Source: Leucosporidium creatinivorum (taxonomy: Eukaryota; Basidiomycota; Microbotryomycetes; Leucosporidiales; Leucosporidiaceae). Taken from it: a DNA stretch of 64,000 nt. The stretch spans positions 799,045 through 863,044 of the forward strand of contig BCKL01000009.1 in NCBI GenBank assembly GCA_001600635.1. The letters run 5' to 3'. Below the pieces are notes generated by a model that saw nothing but the letters and a program-made list of their open reading frames with translations, was not told the origin of the DNA and searched no databases. Both the position numbers and the translations under genes were made by a program. Below are positions 2,295-58,866 of the stretch, piece by piece (within the stretch, counting starts at the first letter, position 1; each line of letters opens with the position of its first letter).

Positions 2295-4514
<2,220 letters not shown>

Positions 4515-4935: not shown

Positions 4936-6877
4936 TTACGCAACAACCGAGTAGACACGGGTAACGTTGTCCGAGTAACTGAGGGCGAGGGCGAAGGGTC
5001 AGCTTACGCTCGGTATAGCGTCGAGGAGACGGTGCATACCCAGCGAAAAGGGTCTGGCCATCGGCGGACCAGGCGAGGGAAGTAGCGACGGGGGCACGTC
5101 CTCCGGACTCGGACTCGACCTTGAGCTCATCGACGATAGACTGTGGGGGAGACAAAAGGTCAACGCCAGTCGTCCGACGTCGCGCACAGTCCGCGCGCTC
5201 GGCAGACGCTCAGAAAGCAGCTCACCTTGGACTCGAGGTCGAAGATCTTGACGGCGGAGTCGGTGGCGGCGCAGAGCCAGTAACGGTTGGGCGAGAAGAC
5301 GAGGGCGTTGATCGTGTCTCCGGCCTCGAGCGAGTAGAGGTGCTTTCCCTCGTTGAGGTCCCAGAGCATGGTGATGCCATCCTTTCCTCCCGAAGCGCAA
5401 AGCGAGCCATCGGGCGAGACGGTGACGGTCGAGATGTATCCGGTGTGGCCGAAGTGGTTGGTGCGGAGCTTGCACTTGGAGAGCTCCCAGACCTGCACAA
5501 GAGTGATAAACGCCGAATGGGTCAGCGATCGTCTCGTGGAGTTGCTAGAGGGTTGTGCTTGAGCGCCGACCACCGAGCGCGAGCCGTCTGCTTGAAATCA
5601 GCGATCTTGGTGGATAATTAAAGTGGTCTCATAGGAATAGATAGTCCCTCTGAAGTAGCAAATATTACACAAGTTGTGAAATCATCATATGAGAAGCAGC
5701 GTGGCTCGGCCCGAGGTGGTCGCAGGTGGGCGAAAGCTGAAACGAGACGTCCAAGACGAAACGAAAGCTCGAAAACAGGACCGAAAGACTCACCTTGACG
5801 ACCTTGTCCCATCCAGCCGAGACGATGACGGGGTTCAAGGGGTTGGGCGAGAAGCGAACGCACGAGACCCACTCGGTGTGGCCCTCCTCCTGGATGTTGA
5901 ACTTGCACTCGCCGAGGGTGTTCCAGAGCTTGATGGTGCGGTCACGCGATCCCGAGACGATCTGCCTGTTGTCGGCCGAGAAAGAGACGGAGAGGACGTC
6001 CGAGGTGTGTCCAACGAAGCGGCGGGTGGTGAGTCCGGTGTTGAGGTCCCAGAGGCGGAGGGTCTTGTCCCAGGAAGCCGAAAGAGCGAACTGGCCGTCG
6101 GAGGAGACGACAACGTCCGAGACGAAGCCGTTGTGTCCGTGGAGGATGCGCTTGGGGTAGCCGTAGGCCGACTGTTGGCGCGAGGAGGGTGAAGGTCAGC
6201 TTCCGAAGAGCGTCGTGTGCGTCTTGTCTGCGGCTCGGTCGTGGAGCCTGCCGCCTTCTGGAAATCGGGCAGCAATTCCCCCGCATCGGAGCGTGGTACA
6301 GCTGCCGCCCACTCATCCAGCGCCGGCCCCGCCTCCCTGTAAAGCTTCCCGCTACCGTGCCCGCGACGCCCGGCAGCTCCCTCCGTAGCGCACTGCTTCC
6401 CAAGACCTCCATACGCTCCACAATGCAAAGTAGACCCACCTCATCGCGGGTAAGAGTCCACATGATGATGGTCTTGTCGCGCGAGGCGGTAAGGATCATG
6501 TCGGGGTTCTCCGAGGAGGTGGCAATGGCGGTGACATCGCCACTAGTAGAGTCGAATGCGTAGAGTAGGATAGTCGTAGTGAGCGGGTCGTGAGAGGTCG
6601 TGGTGAGATGTGGAAGCGGAATTCGGCGGGTCAGCAGTCTGCGATCGGGTCCTGTAGGTCGTAGAGGGGCACTACGCACCTGTGGCCGACAAGGCTGTAT
6701 ACGTTGAAGAGAGGGGACAAAGGTTAGCTAGCCCGTTTCGCCGTACATGCCTGGTTTCCCCCTCCGGAGCGGTTCTCGTCGCCCGCCGCTCCGCCGCCCC
6801 CCCGTGCACCGCTGCAAGCTCCCAAGACGTAGTAGAATAGCTCGCCTGCCCTTCAGAATCATACTCTCGCTGGACAT
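4936..6877 (-). CDS. ASC1: RACK1/Asc1/Cpc2 ribosome-associated WD40 protein
   Basis: A seven-bladed WD40 scaffold on the head of the 40S ribosomal subunit, linking translation to signalling. Seven exons: 6846-6877, 6680-6694, 6440-6542, 5794-6171, 5226-5492, 5040-5140 and 4936-4978, giving 312 residues, the usual length. Diagnostic stretches are [48 protein letters not shown] and [14 protein letters not shown]. Exon 2 is a 15-nt microexon. The first coding intron fits best with a GC donor (AG/GCGAGC). A 5'UTR intron appears to end one base before the start (TACAG/CATG). Intron 5493-5793 hosts a U24-like box C/D snoRNA, as the ASC1 intron of Saccharomyces hosts snR24. Confidence 0.96.
5590..5697 (-). 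ncRNA. SNORD24: Box C/D snoRNA U24 (snR24/SNORD24-like), copy 1, in a RACK1 intron
   Basis: AT-rich segment within the 301-nt RACK1 intron 5493-5793, same strand as the host. Read on the minus strand it has box C (TGATGA, plus positions 5682-5687), the U24 guide ATATTTGCTAC ahead of a D'-like site, a C'-like TGAGA, then the second U24 guide CCACCAAGATCG next to box D (CTGA, 5598-5601). A GCTT/AAGC terminal stem can pair outside boxes C and D. U24 guides 2'-O-methylation of the large-subunit rRNA. The 92 bp at 5597-5688 are identical to the second copy at 47635-47726. The U24 identity rests on remembered human and yeast guide sequences. Confidence 0.9.
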
Positions 6878-20054: not shown

Positions 20055-21938
20055 ATGACGTCTACTACATGGCCCCCAGCGTTGACTAGAGAGCAAGAAT
20101 CGCACCTCTTGGAATTAGCTACAGATTACTGTTTAGCCTCGGGACTCGTCTACCGCCCTCCAGCTCTCACTCTCTCCCCCGACTCTGTTCCATCCACTAC
20201 ATCAGCCATTCACGCTCCTTACTCCCTCTTCCCTACTCCCTTCCCTCGTCACCTCTTCCAACAAGCTCAACAGCTTCAACCACTGTACAACGCCCTCTAC
20301 GCTCACGTTACTACCCACCACCCTTTCCTCGACGAGGTCGTAGGAGGTGCAGTCGCAAAAGTGGATGAATTTCAAGGAAAGCTATACGAGCTATGGAAGC
20401 AGGTAGAGCAGGAGGGAGTCAAGCAGGTTAGTACGAACAGGCTGGGAGCAGCGACGCGTTCGGCGAGCTGACACATCCTCCTACTCCTTCGCTCTCTCGC
20501 ATTACTACAGCCCCTCCACCTCGGTCTCTTCCGCTCCGATTACCTCGTACATGCTCCCCCTGGTACTGCTACCGCAGATCACACCATCAAGCAAGTCGAG
20601 TTCAACACCATCTCCTCTTCGTTCGGCTCCCTCTCGTCTAGGGTCACGGATCTGCACCGGTGAGCACTAGTCGTCGCTCTCATTCACTTCTATAGACTAC
20701 TGACTATCGTATGAGATGATCTAGATACCTCCTCAAGACCAACTCGTACCCTCCCAACGTGCCCGAGCTCAAGTTGGAGAACCTCCCTCCCAACCCCGCT
20801 CTCAAAGGATTGGCAGCAGGTCTCGCGGCGGGACACAAGGCTTATAGTGTACCCAAGTGAGCTGTCTCTGCTCCTCGACCGAGAAAGCCAGCTAACACCC
20901 GCTCTCTCGGACGCTCGCAGCTCGGCGATCCTCATGGTCACGCAAGACAACGAGCGCAACGCTTTCGACCAGCGACCACTCGAGTACGAGCTTCTGGAGA
21001 CGTACGTGTGCCCTCTCCCCTTCTCTATACCTCGCTAAACCCTCTCGCTCCCTCCCAACAGCCACAACATCGCCCTGCACCGCATCCCTCTCTCACAACT
21101 CGGCCCACTCCTCACCCTCCACCCAACCACCACCTCCCTCCTCCTCACCCTCCCCCACTCTCCCACTTCCCCTCCAGTCGAGATCTCCGTAGTCTACTAC
21201 CGCACAGGCTACTCACCCCCCGACTACACGCACCCCACTGTCCCCTCCTCCCAACTCTGGGCCACGCGCCTGCTGATCGAACGCTCCCTCGCCATCAAAT
21301 GCCCGACCCTCGCCCTCCAACTCGCCGGCTGCAAAAAAGTCCAACAAGTCCTTTCCTCCCCCTCCTCTCTCTCCTCCTTCACCTCCAAGGGCTCGACACC
21401 CTCGACCCTCTCTCCCCCTCCCACCTCTGCCCTCTCCAACAGCGACATGTCCGCCCTCCTCGACTCGGCCACGAACCTCTACCCACTGGACGCCTCTCGC
21501 TCGGGTCTCGCAGCCCTCGAGTTGGCCTACGCCCATCCCGAGCGATTCGTCCTCAAGCCCCAGCGCGAGGGGGGAGGCAACAATATCTACCGGGGCGACA
21601 TTCCTCCTTTCCTCGACGCCCTGGCGGAGGAGGATAAACAGCGGAAAGAAGGAGAGCCCAAGGGAAGGGAAGGGTACATCTTGATGGACTTGATCACTCC
21701 CCCGCCGAGCGAGGCGGTGATGGTCCGCGCGGGCGAAGGGAGGGGGACGAAAGGAGGGGTGGTCTCCGAGTTGGGGGNTTATGGGGTGTGTTTGTTCCGT
21801 TCTGGAGGAGAGGGAGGGGGAGCAGAGGTTCTGGTGAATGAGACGGTCGGTCAGCTGTTGAGGACCAAGGGAGCCGAGAGTGATGAAGGGGGTGTCGCCG
21901 TGGGGTTCTCCGTGATTGATAGTGTGCTGTTGGTGTAA
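20055..21938 (+). CDS. GSH2: Glutathione synthetase
   Basis: ATP-dependent ligation of glycine to gamma-glutamylcysteine, the last step of glutathione synthesis. Five exons: 20055-20426, 20511-20659, 20725-20856, 20921-21001 and 21062-21938, giving about 536 residues (the family is usually 470-500). Family signatures are VEFNTISSSFG, VTQDNERNAFDQRPLEYELLE, VYYRTGYSP, LIERSLAIKCP, the glycine-rich ATP loop KPQREGGGNNIYRGD, and the C-terminal SELG(x)YG. An ambiguous base at 21779 falls in the conserved SELG-x-YG motif. The insert near residues 340-370, rich in Ser/Thr/Pro, explains the extra length. Confidence 0.95.
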
Positions 21939-44514: not shown

Positions 44515-47194
44515 ATGGTCCTCCCAATGATCCCCCTCGTCGCCGGAGGCATCACAGCAGCCGCCTACCTCGACGCCAAGTACTACATCTCGCGCGATCT
44601 CGCCAAGGGTATCGCTCTCGCTGGAGCTGGACGCACGTATGTCCTAGCCACCTCGCTGCTCTATTGTTGCCGACAGCTCACCCAACTCTCTCCCTCTCCG
44701 CTCACTCTGCAGCCTCAAGAAGAATGACAAGCAGGACAAGAACTCGATCTACTACTACTTTGAGAACTCGCTCCTCACCCGCAAAGATGCAGACTGCCTC
44801 GTGTGCGAGAACGTCACCTTGAGCTGGATCCAGGTCTCGCAGCGTAAGCCTCTGCCCATCTCTCGGCCTGTACGCCAGTGCTAACCCCCTTCGGCAACCT
44901 CGCAGAGGTAAACCGACTTGCACACCTTCTCATCTCCCGCGGCGTCAAGAAGGGCGATGTCGTGGCGCTCTACATGTAAGGCCGAAGCTGGCCTGGCGCG
45001 CATCTTCACGCCCCACTCACTTCGCTTCCGCTCTTCGCAGGCCTAACAAGCCCGCCTACCCCATCATCTGGCTCGCTTGTCTTGCATTGAATGTGTACGT
45101 GCTCGCGTGACCGTCCTGTAGCCTTCGGAGCCCGTCGAGCTGACCTCTTCGCCCACCCTCTCTCGTCCTTTCTCTCCGTCTGGCGAATCTCGGCGCCAGC
45201 GTCCCCGCCTTCATCAATTTCAATCTCACCGACGAGGGTCTCCGCCACTGCATCACCGTCTCGCGCGCCTCCCTCGTCCTCTACGAAGCGGACCTCTCGC
45301 AACCCATCGCCGAAATCGCCGACACCCTCCGTCGCGAGCTGCCCGGCATTGGCTTCCTCCGCTGGATCGACTCGTTTTCCAAGTCGAGTGGAGAGAAGGA
45401 GGGCGTTCAGGGCGAGTTTACGATTGATGAGAGGGTGTTGAGTCAGTTCTCGGTGGAGAAGATTGATGATTCGCTGAGGAAGGGGATTGGATGGCAGGAT
45501 CCGGCGTGCTTGATCTACACTAGTGGAACGACGGGGTTGCCCAAGGCTGCTATCGTCACTCATGGACGAACTGCCACGGCCCTCATCGTACGGCTCTCTC
45601 GGTCGTTCTCCTCTCAGCGCTCGCTGACTTTCCTTGCTCGTCCCTTCCCCCAACTCGAACACAGATGTGGAGCCATCTCAATCACTTCTCCAAGGACTCT
45701 CGCATCTTCACTCCCATGCCCCTCTACCACTCGACCGCCGCTCTCCTCGCCATCGGAGTCGCCTGGAATGTCGGCGCCACCGTCATCATCGGCCGCAAGT
45801 TCTCCGCCTCGACCTTTTGGAAGGAGGTCAGGGATCACGATGCCAATGTCATCCAGTGCGTTCCTTTCGTCCTTCCCCTCTCACTCGAGCAGCCCGCTGA
45901 CCTAGCCGCCCGAAACCAGATACGTCGGCGAAGTCCTCCGCTACCTCCTCGCCGTTCCTCCCTCCCCTCTCGACAAGCAACACAAAGTCGTTCAAGCCTA
46001 CGGCAACGGCTGTCGCCCCGACGTCTGGAACACCTTCCGCGACCGGTTCGGCGTTCAGACCATCTCCGAATTCTTCGCTTCCTCCGAAGGCAACGGCTCG
46101 CTCTTCAACCACAATCAGAACAACCTTGGAGCGGGAGCCGTGGGACATGATGGGCCGTTAAGCAGGTTTGCGAGGAGGAATAAGCAGTGTCTTGTGAGGG
46201 TGGACCCCGAGACGGAGGCGCCGGCGAGGGATGAGAAGGGCTGGTGCATCAGGGTGAGTTCGAGCGTCGCTGTCGTGGATCGGACCGAAGCTAACTGCTA
46301 TTCGTCTCTCTTGCAGTCCGAGTTTGACGAGGACGGCGAGATGATCTGCGAGATTGTCGTCGACTCGCCCTTCCAGGTTCGTTCCCTCTCTCCTCTTCTT
46401 CCTCTCACCACTTCCCTCATTACCCAAACCTCCTCCACAGAACTTTGCCGGCTACCACGGCAACGCCTCGGGCACCGAGAAGAAGATCCTCCGCGACGTC
46501 TTTACCAAGGGCGACATGTACTTCCGCACGGGCGACCTCCTCCGCGTCTCCAAGGAAGGCTACTACTACTTCGCCGACCGCATGGGCGATACCTTCAGGT
46601 GGAAGAGTGAGAACGTGGGGACGCAGCAGATCGCCGAGGCGGTCGGCCCGTTGTTGAAGGAGGCGAGCGTTTATGGAGTGCTGGGTGAGTTAAAAGAGCT
46701 TTATTTCCGGATTGAGCGACTGCTAACTCTCTTGCGTTTGCGCTACACTAGTCCCCGGACACGACGGTCGAGCCGGCTGCGTCGCCATCCCCGAATCGGC
46801 CCGCCCCATCAACCTCGAGCAACTCGCTCTTCACGTCAACAAGGCGCTCCCCAAATACGCTGTACCTCTTTTCATTCGCTTCGTCGACAAGTGAGTAGTG
46901 TATCTCTCTCTCGTCTCGGCTAGCCGTTCGTGGCATCAAGAGCCCTTCGGCTGACCTTCCTCCTCGCCTTGCCCATCTCTTTCGCTCCTCGCTCCTCCCT
47001 CTTCCTCTGTCCGCTCGCCCGGCAGATTGGAATATACTGGGACGCAGAAGTTGCAGAAAGTTGGTCACCGTAATGAGGGAGTCGACCCCGAGACGACCAA
47101 AGGCGACGCCGTCTACTGGCTCCAAGGCGGCAAGTACGTGCCCTTCACCAAGGAGAGCTGGGCCAAGATCAAGGCTGGTCAGGTCAAGCTTTGA
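44515..47194 (+). CDS. FAT1: Very-long-chain acyl-CoA synthetase / fatty acid transport protein
   Basis: Activates long and very long fatty acids to CoA esters, at the ER, peroxisome or plasma membrane. Exons 44515-44636, 44713-44843, 44906-44975, 45041-45094, 45200-45587, 45665-45855, 45920-46253, 46317-46376, 46441-46684, 46752-46890 and 47026-47194 give 633 residues with closed phase. The N-terminus is hydrophobic (MIPLVAGGITAAAYLDA). Motifs: the AMP-binding loop YTSGTTGLPKAA, TPMPLYHSTA, YGNGCRPDVW, SEFFASSEGN, YFRTGD and DRMGDTFRWKSENVGTQQI, the last being the FATP/VLACS signature. The C-terminus has KLEYTGTQKLQKVGH. Confidence 0.95.
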
Positions 47195-47547
47195 GGAGCG
47201 TCGAATGCGCTAGTGATGGACTACATGTAGCTGTGCGAGAAAGCTGTAACAATCGGGGTTGGTTCTGTACTTAGCGACGGCGATTCGGCGAGCTGCGCTT
47301 CCTTCAGCGAACGTAAGTTGCTTTCGAACTCGCTCACTGCTGCTCGTTCGCACCGTTCGCTCGAGAGCAGTCGCCTCCACGCACTCTACTTCCGTCGCTC
47401 TCGCTCGGTCCGAGCTCTCGGCGACTCTCGATCTCTCGACGGCGACGAGGTTTCTACACGAACTGAACTGCTTTGCACGCTCCTCGCCGGGAGCGATAAT
47501 CGATGGGGGTGGTGTGAGATGGTCTACCAAGAAACGAAGGATGTAAT
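47195..47547. other. Convergent region FAT1 (+) / GPM1 (-)
   Basis: Holds the FAT1 3'UTR and the last non-coding exon of GPM1. No separate gene seen. Confidence 0.4.
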
Positions 47548-47816
47548 CTAAGACCACACAGAGGGAGAGAGACAAGTCAGCTCGAATTCGACGAAAAGCG
47601 AATGAGTTGCTCGGCGTGCGCGACTGCTAACAGGATCAGCGATCTTGGTGGATAATTAAAGTGGTCTCATAGGAATAGATAGTCCCTCTGAAGTAGCAAA
47701 TATTACACAAGTTGTGAAATCATCATGTGAGAGCAGCGGCGACCCAATGGAGGGTTCGCCTGGCGCGCGCCGAGTGGGATGGGAGAGAAGGAGAAGAGAC
47801 CGAGAATGAAGCTCAC
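47548..47816 (-). other. 3'UTR intron of GPM1
   Basis: GTGAGC donor at 47816, CTGAC branch-like sequence and pyrimidine-rich acceptor (TCTTAG) at 47548, beginning 16 nt after the GPM1 stop. That distance is short enough to escape the usual 50-nt rule for nonsense-mediated decay. It carries a U24 snoRNA. Confidence 0.75.
47624..47736 (-). ncRNA. SNORD24: Box C/D snoRNA U24 (snR24/SNORD24-like), copy 2, in the GPM1 3'UTR intron
   Basis: Identical over 92 bp (47635-47726) to the copy in the RACK1 intron, including box C, both rRNA guides and box D. The flanks differ, yet form their own terminal stem (CTGCT/AGCAG instead of GCTT/AAGC), as expected if both copies are processed. Same strand as its host. 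Confidence 0.88.
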
Positions 47817-47832
47817 CTTGTAGATGGAGAAT

Positions 47833-49002
47833 CTAGTGCTCTGCAAGAAGGGAGGCACGCGGTCAGCGACTGAGCGAAAAAGATGAACGCCGAGGAGAAC
47901 TCACTGAGGATCTCCTTGGAAACGACCTTGCCCTCAGCATCAAGCTTGTAGACGATGGGGACACCGGTAGCGAGCTCGACGTTGACGATCTCCTCGCCCG
48001 AAAGGCCCTCAAGGGACTTGATGATGGCGCGGAGCGAGTTGCCGTGGGCGGCGACGAGGACCTTCTCTCCCTTCTTGATGCGGGGGAGGATCTCCGACTC
48101 GTAGTAGGGAAGGGTGCGGTCGGCGGTGAGCTTGAGCGACTCTCCTCCGGGAGGAGGGATGTCGTAGGAACGGCGCCAGATGTGGACCTGCTCCTCTCCG
48201 AACTTCTTGCGGGCTGTCGAGAGAACGGCGTCAGCGACAAGCGAGCGATGTCCGGCACAGCGAAAACTCACCATCATCCTTGTTGAGGCCGGTAAGCTCC
48301 CCGTAATCACGCTCGTTGAGCTTCTCCGACTTGATGATCTCGAGTCCCTCCTGGCCGATCTCCTTGAGGATGATGTCGAGGGTGTCGTTGGCGCGCTTGA
48401 GGACCGACGAGTAGGCGACGTCGTACTTGGTCTCGGCGTGCTTCTTGAGAGCCTGTGCTCCGCTGAGGGCCTCACCGCGTCCCTTCTCGCTGTGGGTTCG
48501 GCGCAAGGTCAGTCGGGGAAGGTGACGGCGCGCTGCCGAGATCGACGTACGTGAGCTCGGGGTTCTTCCATCCGGTGAAGAGGTTGAGCTTGTTCCACTC
48601 GGACTATGGGATGGTGAGGGGGATGTAGATGAGGGTGAGGGGAGGGGAAAGCAAAAAGGGGAAGTCAGCTCTGGCTCGAGCGACGACCCTGCTACAGAGC
48701 AGATGTAGACGAGTAATGATGCACTCACCTCTCCGTGCCTATACACGAGCAGAACAGCAAGCGCAGACGAGATTAGCGAGAGATCTCGAGGCGGCGCACG
48801 CAACACGAGGCGGTCGACGGCGGTAGTTCGACGAACCTGACGAGAACGAGCTGTAGAAGGGCATAGAGTTAGTCTACAAGCTCTGGTAGTGCCCCTGCTC
48901 CACTGCAACGTCCGCCAGACGGCGAGGAAGCAGTGCCAGCGCGAGCGGTTGGGTCATGGAAGCGCAAGGGAAGTGCGAGCTCACCTCTGATCCGTTGGAC
49001 AT
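47833..49002 (-). CDS. GPM1: Phosphoglycerate mutase, 2,3-bisphosphoglycerate-dependent, short form
   Basis: Interconverts 3- and 2-phosphoglycerate in glycolysis. Exons 48985-49002, 48837-48850 (14 nt), 48729-48738 (10 nt), 48551-48603, 48272-48489, 47905-48213 and 47833-47840, 209 residues. This short type resembles the Schizosaccharomyces and alpha-proteobacterial enzymes rather than the 247-residue Saccharomyces one. The catalytic RHGES motif is assembled from three exons. Other motifs: [63 protein letters not shown] (second catalytic His) and [17 protein letters not shown]. The final coding exon has only eight coding bases, ending in TAG. Confidence 0.95.
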
Positions 49003-56853: not shown

Positions 56854-58866
56854 ATGAGCTTCTTCACCGGCATGTACGTCTCACCTCGTCCTTCAACACA
56901 CGCGCCTCTCGCTCTCAGCTGACCCCCTTCTCGCTCCCTCAGCGGCAAAGCCAAAACGTTCAAACCTCGCAAGGTATCCTCATAACTTTCCCGCTGCTCC
57001 CGCTGCAACTCAAGCTCACCTGCTCCCGTTGCAACCGACGCGCACCGCAGAACGTCCCGGACAACACTCGCGCCTTTCAGCTCAAGAAGTGAGCTGCGCT
57101 GCTTCCCCTCTCGCTCTCACTCCTTCCACACCCACACTAACCTCTACCTTCTTCCTGCTACGATAAAAGATACGCCGAAGCGACGTCCGTCCCCTTCTCA
57201 ACTCCCTCGCTGCTCGTCGCCCCGTGCACGCGCTGACCTCCGCTCCCGTTGCAATCGACTACAAACAGCCTCGGATCAGGCAACCTTCGTCTCGCGGTCG
57301 TCTTGCCCGAGGGAGAGGATCTGAACGAATGGTTGGCGGTGAATAGTGAGTTTCGGTCGCTGCTTCTCGGAGCTGGCGAGAGGAGGAGGAGGAGGTGAGG
57401 GCCAGGATGGGTGGAGCTGATGGTGTGCATTTGGGTGTGGTGCAACAGCCGTCGACTTCTTCAACCAAATCAACATGCTCGTGAGTCGCTTGTTGCTTGC
57501 CCTGGAGGGGGACAGGAGAGGGCAGGAGCAGAGCTCGGCGCTGACTCTGACCTCGCCCCTCTCTTGCCCTCGCCCATGCAAATCGTCTCCTCATCCACCT
57601 CATCATTGCTGCTCGCTACGACCCTCTGCTCACCCGCTCATGGGCGCACCCACCTTCTCCGCCACCTCTCCGCAACGCGCGCACGCCCCATCCCCTCTCT
57701 CTCTCTCTTCTCACACCATCAGTACGGCACCGTCACCGAATTCTGCACCCCGCAGGAATGCCCCATCATGTGCGCCGGTCCGCGGTTCGAATACCATTGG
57801 CAGGACGGAGGGGCGTTCAAGAAGCCGACGAGGATGTCGGCGCCTGGTTCGTTGTTTTCCATCTCCATCTTCTCTATTCTCTCTCGCTGGGTGGTGGGGA
57901 TCGGAGAGGAGGGTGCGAGGAAGTGGGAGACGCTGATCGCTCGCCCGAAACCCCCCCCCCCCCCCCCCCCCCCCCNNNNNNNNNNNNNNNNNNNNNNNNN
58001 NNNNNNNNNNNNNNNNNNNNNNNNNNNNNNNNNNNNNNNNNNNNNNNNNNNNNNNNNNNNNNNNNNNNNNNNNNNNNNNNNNNNNNNNNNNNNNCCCGCC
58101 TCGCTCCGCTCACCGCTCACACGACACGAACATGACATGACCAAAAAAACAGAGTACGTCGACCACCTGATGAACTGGGTCCAAGCCATGCTCGACGATG
58201 AGGCCGTCTTCCCCTCCAAGATTGGTTCGTCCTTCCTCTCTCGTCTCTCTCGGCTTACTTACTAACCCCTCCTCCTCTTTCTCCCCTCCCCCAACAAACT
58301 CTCGATACTAACATGTGTATGATGATGGCTCAACAGGCGTCGCCTTCCCCAAGTCCTTCCCCCAAACCATCAAATCCATCGTCCGGCGCTTGTTCCGCGT
58401 GTACGCGCATTTGTACAATCACCATTTTGCGCAGCTTTGTGCGTTGAGCATCGAGGGTGAGTTTCACACTGTCCTTCCTTGCTCCCTTTGAGCGAGGAGC
58501 AGGAGGAGAGGAGGACGGGGAGAACGAGGAGTGGAGAGAGCTGATCATTGGGTGATGGATTGCACAGCGCACATCAATACGAGTTATAGGCATTTCTTGA
58601 TGTTTGTCACTGAGGTGGGTTTTTTCTTGCTTCCTTGCTCTGCCACGTGGGAGTCGCTGGGAGGGGTCGAGGAGGCCGAGCTGCGGCTCTGTCGCCTCGG
58701 TTCGAAGTTCTTACAATCGCGGTGATCAACGGGGTGGTGAGCGTTGCTGACCTCCTTTCTTTCCTCCCCCGTTCTCGTCTCGGCTCGTCTCGCGCAGTTC
58801 AACCTCGTCGAGAAGAAGGAGCTCGCCCCGCTCGCCGAGCTGAATGACAGCGTTTTGAACGCTTGA
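56854..58866 (+). CDS. MOB1: MOB kinase activator 1 (Mob1)
   Basis: Co-activator of NDR/LATS kinases, acting in mitotic exit and septation (Dbf2/Sid2 partner). Eleven exons: 56854-56873, 56943-56973, 57051-57088, 57170-57184, 57269-57345, 57449-57480, 57723-57846, 58153-58224, 58337-58456, 58568-58614 and 58798-58866, 214 residues. Exon 4 is a 15-nt microexon. Motifs: [34 protein letters not shown], the zinc cysteines in CTPQECPIMCAG, the zinc histidines in YAHLYNHH, and HINTSYRHFLMFVTEFNLV. The assembly gap falls in the intron between exons 7 and 8, so no coding sequence is lost. Confidence 0.96.
57951..58094. other. Poly-C tract and assembly gap in a MOB1 intron
   Basis: 25 consecutive C (57951-57975) run into 119 N (57976-58094). 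The long homopolymer is the likely reason the assembly broke, and the true length is unknown. Confidence 0.95.

Follow-up and report, generated by a model that had tools for sequence, protein, structure and literature searches.

The predicted 3'UTR intron of a phosphoglycerate mutase (PGM) gene probably carries an intact second copy of the gene for box C/D snoRNA U24, which would be spliced out and processed, its core having since been kept identical to that of the U24 copy in an intron of the RACK1 homologue. The whole unit in the PGM intron (47624..47736, minus strand, 113 bp) extends from CTGCT at 47736-47732 to AGCAG at 47628-47624 and includes a core of 91 bp (47636..47726). The unit in the RACK1 intron (5588..5699, minus strand) extends from CTGCTT at 5699-5694 to AAGCAG at 5593-5588, with the core at 5688-5598.

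The window, that is, the whole stretch of DNA that was analysed, is 64 kb long (C9:799045-863044) and belongs to a 27.7-Mb, 63-contig assembly; all positions are those of the window unless a contig is named. It contains a run of 119 N at 57976-58094 and a single N at 21778. Judging by the gene models and what they match best, the organism is a fungus. When positions 47500-47850 were compared with the entire window by 14-mers, we observed one long run, an exact 92-bp identity of 47635-47726 with 5597-5688, and, near 47781-47786, four isolated 14-mer matches. The run comprises box C through box D (91 bp) and one additional T; the base-for-base identity of the cores claimed in the initial annotation is thereby borne out. 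Both copies are on the minus strand, in the same orientation, with 42,038 bp between them. A third copy was not found in the 27.7-Mb assembly either by BLAST with the 113-bp unit or with two 21-base patterns allowing at most three mismatches, the repeat counts obtained in this way being possibly lower bounds.

As misjoins can arise from short identical repeats, one could ascribe the two-copy arrangement to the assembly itself. However, the copies have different flanks and are situated within two gene models with intact frames, and ordinary reads are longer than a 92-bp repeat. The differing flanks and the two intact host gene models led us to reject an artefact, which we regard as extremely improbable.

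In the PGM-intron copy, box C (ATGATGA) occupies 47726-47720 and box D (CTGA) 47639-47636. Together with the CTGCT/AGCAG outer stem, they form the arrangement expected of a box C/D RNA, the stem being placed 5 and 7 nt off the boxes and not adjacent to them. The two boxes and the two guides have all remained intact. A point against our main reading is that the unit, folded bare, gains no stability over shuffled sequences (z 0.87; equalled or surpassed by 156 of 200 shuffles), as is common for C/D RNAs. We take the CAGA beside the D' guide to be a non-canonical D' box, followed by a hairpin and then by TATGAGA as box C'. The C'/D' motif of yeast U24 is likewise off consensus, according to the available part of PMC5389607.

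At the default gathering threshold, Rfam yielded no matches in the window. The SNORD24 model (RF00069) scores 26.4 bits for the PGM copy and 25.2 bits for the RACK1 copy, both below the gathering cut-off of 41, which likewise counts against our main reading. At a loose threshold, SNORD24 is the sole snoRNA family matching in 46500-48500, and its alignment is good at both guides, with a 13-letter insert and smaller gaps. In a whole-genome SNORD24 run, where 59 of 2117 first-look candidates were scored, the two U24 copies were the only rows; the same search gave matches in 11 of 14 control prokaryotes, none of them above the cut-off. Three weak Rfam matches to sR-type C/D families were seen in the window; a weak match to sR14, presumably an archaeal C/D family, is located at 3456-3508 on the minus strand (24.8 bits, cut-off 38, E 0.016). 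A blind scan of both strands of the window for box C, box D and a stem returned four places, including both U24 copies, with 1, 0, 0, 0 and 0 hits in five block-wise single-base shuffles, which constitute a weak control. The other places, 22468-22362 and 1380-1316 on the minus strand, have box C, box D and a 6-bp outer stem, and as C/D RNAs both may be due to chance.

The LSU rRNA used for pairing is that of another eukaryote, namely a fragment in the IMG/VR contig L005 (Rfam LSU_rRNA_eukarya, 324.6 bits). It was used because two typed patterns (2 to 3 mismatches) detected no LSU rRNA of the organism itself in the assembly; the rDNA may therefore be absent from the assembly contigs. The fragment includes the target stretch, and the core pairs with this LSU at the expected site over 13 bp (AATATTTGCTACT) and over 11 bp (CCACCAAGATC), and these are the two longest complementary stretches against the 389 nt of LSU, the next ones being 10, 9 and 9 (G-U pairs allowed). 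U24 is distinguished by one guide upstream of D' and one upstream of D, complementary to neighbouring LSU sites; both are observed here, on another eukaryote's LSU. By the five-base-pair rule for the position of the guide target, as given in the accessible part of PMC5389607, the C of GATC is the predicted target of the D guide. Gapped U24 patterns had no matches in viral contigs and none in bacterial and archaeal genome contigs. A 17-base guide pattern matched 11 viral contigs; since the second guide was found nearby in none of the 11, these matches are due to chance or unrelated.

The coding part of the RACK1 homologue spans 4936..6877 on the minus strand, the ATG near 6877 being tentative and the first exons left unjoined; joining the five exons between 6542 and the stop at 4936 gave 296 aa. 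Its best sequence match in PDB is 4d6v (G protein beta subunit Gib2; 4.1e-163). The intron hosting U24 (5493..5793, minus strand, 301 nt) has a GTGAGT donor and a branch-like CTGAC whose A precedes the AG by 29 nt, the same distance as in the PGM intron, and 105 nt separate the core from each end of the intron. The intron is in phase 0, after the Lys of DKVVK. In Asc1, this Lys is residue 179, and the ASC1 intron follows codon 179; the intron place observed here matches it. According to the part of PMC4848094 available, snR24 is encoded within an intron of ASC1 and directs the methylation of 25S rRNA at 1437, 1449 and 1450. Since budding yeast snR24 resides in the ASC1/RACK1 intron, RACK1 is the likely original host of U24 and donor of the second copy.

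The PGM gene (47817..49002, minus strand) has seven exons, which are separated by GT...AG introns and join into a complete protein of 209 residues, with the ATG at 49002 and the TAG at 47835-47833. The protein matches Pfam His_Phos_1 (2.1e-39), and its best PDB sequence match is 1fzt (6.5e-86), which we take to be the phosphoglycerate mutase of S. pombe. As the 211-residue chain of 1fzt aligns to residues 7 to 207 of 209, the stop looks genuine, and the next intron is situated behind the coding region. A protein search for a processed PGM copy returned four rows, three of them PGM itself and one a gene on another contig, C32. The latter (C32:258081-258683, L021) is a PGM-like gene, 218 codons open in one stretch and 47% identical, a distant paralogue; U24 was not found at this gene.

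The predicted 3'UTR intron (47548..47816, minus strand, 269 nt) has inferred splice sites. The stop is followed by 16 nt and then by a GTGAGC donor at 47816, exactly where the initial annotation had placed the start of the intron. With a splice-site matrix built from 10 introns of the two host genes, this donor ties with 47337 for the best score among the 29 GT sites in 47840-47300. Against the intron model, the acceptor at 47548 (TTAG) scores only 1.94, and at least 10 other AGs in the same interval score higher, the best one (6.02) being a TTCAG within the snoRNA core. A branch-like motif 12-40 nt upstream is observed for three of the 41 AGs of the interval, at 47624, 47610 and 47548. For the first two, the motif is box D itself, and therefore their use would interfere with the snoRNA; for 47548, it is a CTGAC with its A 29 nt before the final AG. 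Also against the model, two of the 10 introns behind the matrix have no branch motif in the last 60 nt. The intron is thus predicted from splice-like signals, a strong donor and an acceptor with a weak score.

The low score of the acceptor at 47548 would be in line with a dead second copy, transcribed, but unspliced or unprocessed. The outer stem of the PGM copy, one pair shorter than that of RACK1, and the longer spacer after box D point in the same direction. However, the boxes and both guides have been preserved, no decay is seen over 91 bp, and the distances from the core to the donor (90 nt) and to the 3' end of the intron (88 nt) are not far from the 105/105 nt in RACK1. We consider a dead copy improbable.

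The two copies differ immediately outside the boxes. The PGM copy reads CTGCT-CTCAC-boxC and boxD-TCCTGTT-AGCAG, and the RACK1 copy CTGCTT-CTCAT-boxC and boxD-TTTC-AAGCAG. Both flanks and terminal stems had been said to differ; this holds for the flanks, but the contrast between the stems disappears, as CTGCT...AGCAG is present in both copies, in RACK1 as part of CTGCTT...AAGCAG. A shared CTGCT/AGCAG at like offsets arose with a frequency of 4.5e-5 in 200,000 flank shuffles, and of 0.0015 among the 6,076 shuffles that already held a 5-bp stem. The copied unit, therefore, includes the stem and amounts to about 113 bp.

We also considered a duplication of the whole intron and rejected it, since outside the core local alignments score like shuffles (fractions 0.31 at the 5' side and 0.18 at the 3' side). 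In alignments anchored at the core, the 5' side exceeded shuffles at each of eight lengths (fractions 0 to 0.048), whereas for the 3' side most lengths gave no such excess (0.048 to 0.71). After removal of the stem-bearing 12-13 nt at the 5' side and 10-12 nt at the 3' side, neither side was above shuffles at seven lengths (5', 0.086 to 0.76; 3', 0.13 to 0.87). These alignments suggest that what was copied is the C-to-D unit together with its outer stem and not the entire intron.

The initial annotation had regarded the PGM copy as a recent transposition or duplication. A second U24 gene in the predicted intron is indeed found, but its recency is not supported, and the spacers have changed while the core has not. 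At the 5' side there are one substitution and one indel in approximately 12 columns, compared to 0 of 91 in the core (post hoc Fisher test, p 0.013), and the 3' spacer is largely rewritten (5 vs 7 nt). The change in the spacers points weakly away from a very recent copy, and an identity ending at boxes C and D fits an older one, held by selection or gene conversion.

Should the copy be recent, the mature U24 or its precursor would have been reverse-transcribed and inserted into an already existing PGM 3'UTR intron. The perfect 91-bp identity, covering also the presumably less constrained loop letters, would be expected in this case, and mobility of snoRNAs between broadly expressed hosts is documented (PMC3511168, in the part available). 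On the other hand, the spacers between the stem and the boxes have changed, compared to none of the 91 core positions, and the PGM copy has neither the target-site duplication nor the A-rich tail by which retroposed copies are recognized: no A run longer than 2 was found in the 40 nt after its core, and no flanking direct repeat is longer than 5 bp, a length reached in about half of 300 shuffles. Furthermore, the copies are 42 kb apart on one contig; a random landing within this distance has a chance of about 0.003, although this value is not a fair test because the pair was noticed only through falling in one window. Overall, a recent jump seems possible but rather unlikely.

A somewhat less probable reading is an older duplication followed by concerted evolution, the identity of the cores being maintained by gene conversion between the two linked loci. 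The sharp edge of the identity, the 42-kb linkage and the same orientation agree with it. However, the edges of the tract coincide with boxes C and D, for which selection is the simpler explanation, and a tract of approximately 92 bp is short for ectopic conversion.

The first copy resides in the same host gene as U24/snR24 of S. cerevisiae (ASC1/RACK1), and the second one, in the predicted PGM 3'UTR intron, distinguishes this case from budding yeast, where to our knowledge there is one U24 copy only. The two guide functions at neighbouring LSU sites are shared with snR24 as described in the available parts of PMC4848094 and PMC3511168, the site numbering in which differs. In Neurospora crassa, the U24 function is likewise found in two genes, CD50 (U24) and CD51 (U24b), but there the guide functions are divided between the genes, while each of the two identical copies seen here has both guides (PMC2780460, in the part available). 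The same portion of that survey places the Neurospora RNAs ACA10 and ACA16 in the 3'UTRs of two genes, one of them phosphoglycerate mutase-like; these are, however, H/ACA RNAs and are tabulated as "3'UTR" and "Exon+3'UTR", not as intronic. A snoRNA in a 3'UTR intron of this gene had been thought undescribed. For U24 this agrees with the literature searched, covered through the available parts of the papers, where U24 is nowhere placed in a PGM 3'UTR intron; the claim is weakened by the Neurospora H/ACA RNA that may reside in the 3'UTR of a PGM-like gene.

The PGM copy resembles the mobile snoRNAs described under "constrained drift" (PMC3511168, PMC3596301, both in part) in being a copy in a new intron of a broadly expressed gene, but differs from retroposed ones in bearing no marks of retroposition. 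That U24 can be intronic and that snoRNAs are copied and mobile is already known from the accessible parts of PMC3511168, PMC3596301, PMC8476143 and PMC8178906. Hence the second U24 appears to be a real but modest new case of known snoRNA copying.

If the second gene is functional, the PGM pre-mRNA would be spliced, and the intron lariat would be debranched and trimmed to a snoRNP. Loss of the debranching enzyme in Fusarium lowers intronic U24 and lets lariats that carry snoRNAs accumulate (PMC9606315, in the part available). The PGM-derived U24 would then join the same pool as the RACK1-derived one and direct 2'-O-methylation to the C in GATC (1437 in yeast) as well as to the neighbouring A and G (1449/1450 in yeast). 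The PGM mRNA would escape decay, since the splice junction is only 16 nt after the stop and the rule for junction-dependent decay is a distance of approximately 50 nt from the stop; this seems a reasonable argument. The two cores would be kept identical by selection, gene conversion, or both.

A broader reading is that one guide RNA is fed by a ribosomal scaffold and a glycolytic host, so that methylation at three LSU sites would follow both translation and sugar metabolism, with the copies evolving in concert; we consider this quite doubtful. Two unrelated, probably well-expressed genes whose introns contain one guide RNA in identical sequence form a clean, testable pair, the precursors being distinguishable because the spacer letters differ. 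A predicted 3'UTR intron situated this near the stop codon could, moreover, carry a snoRNA without harm to the mRNA.
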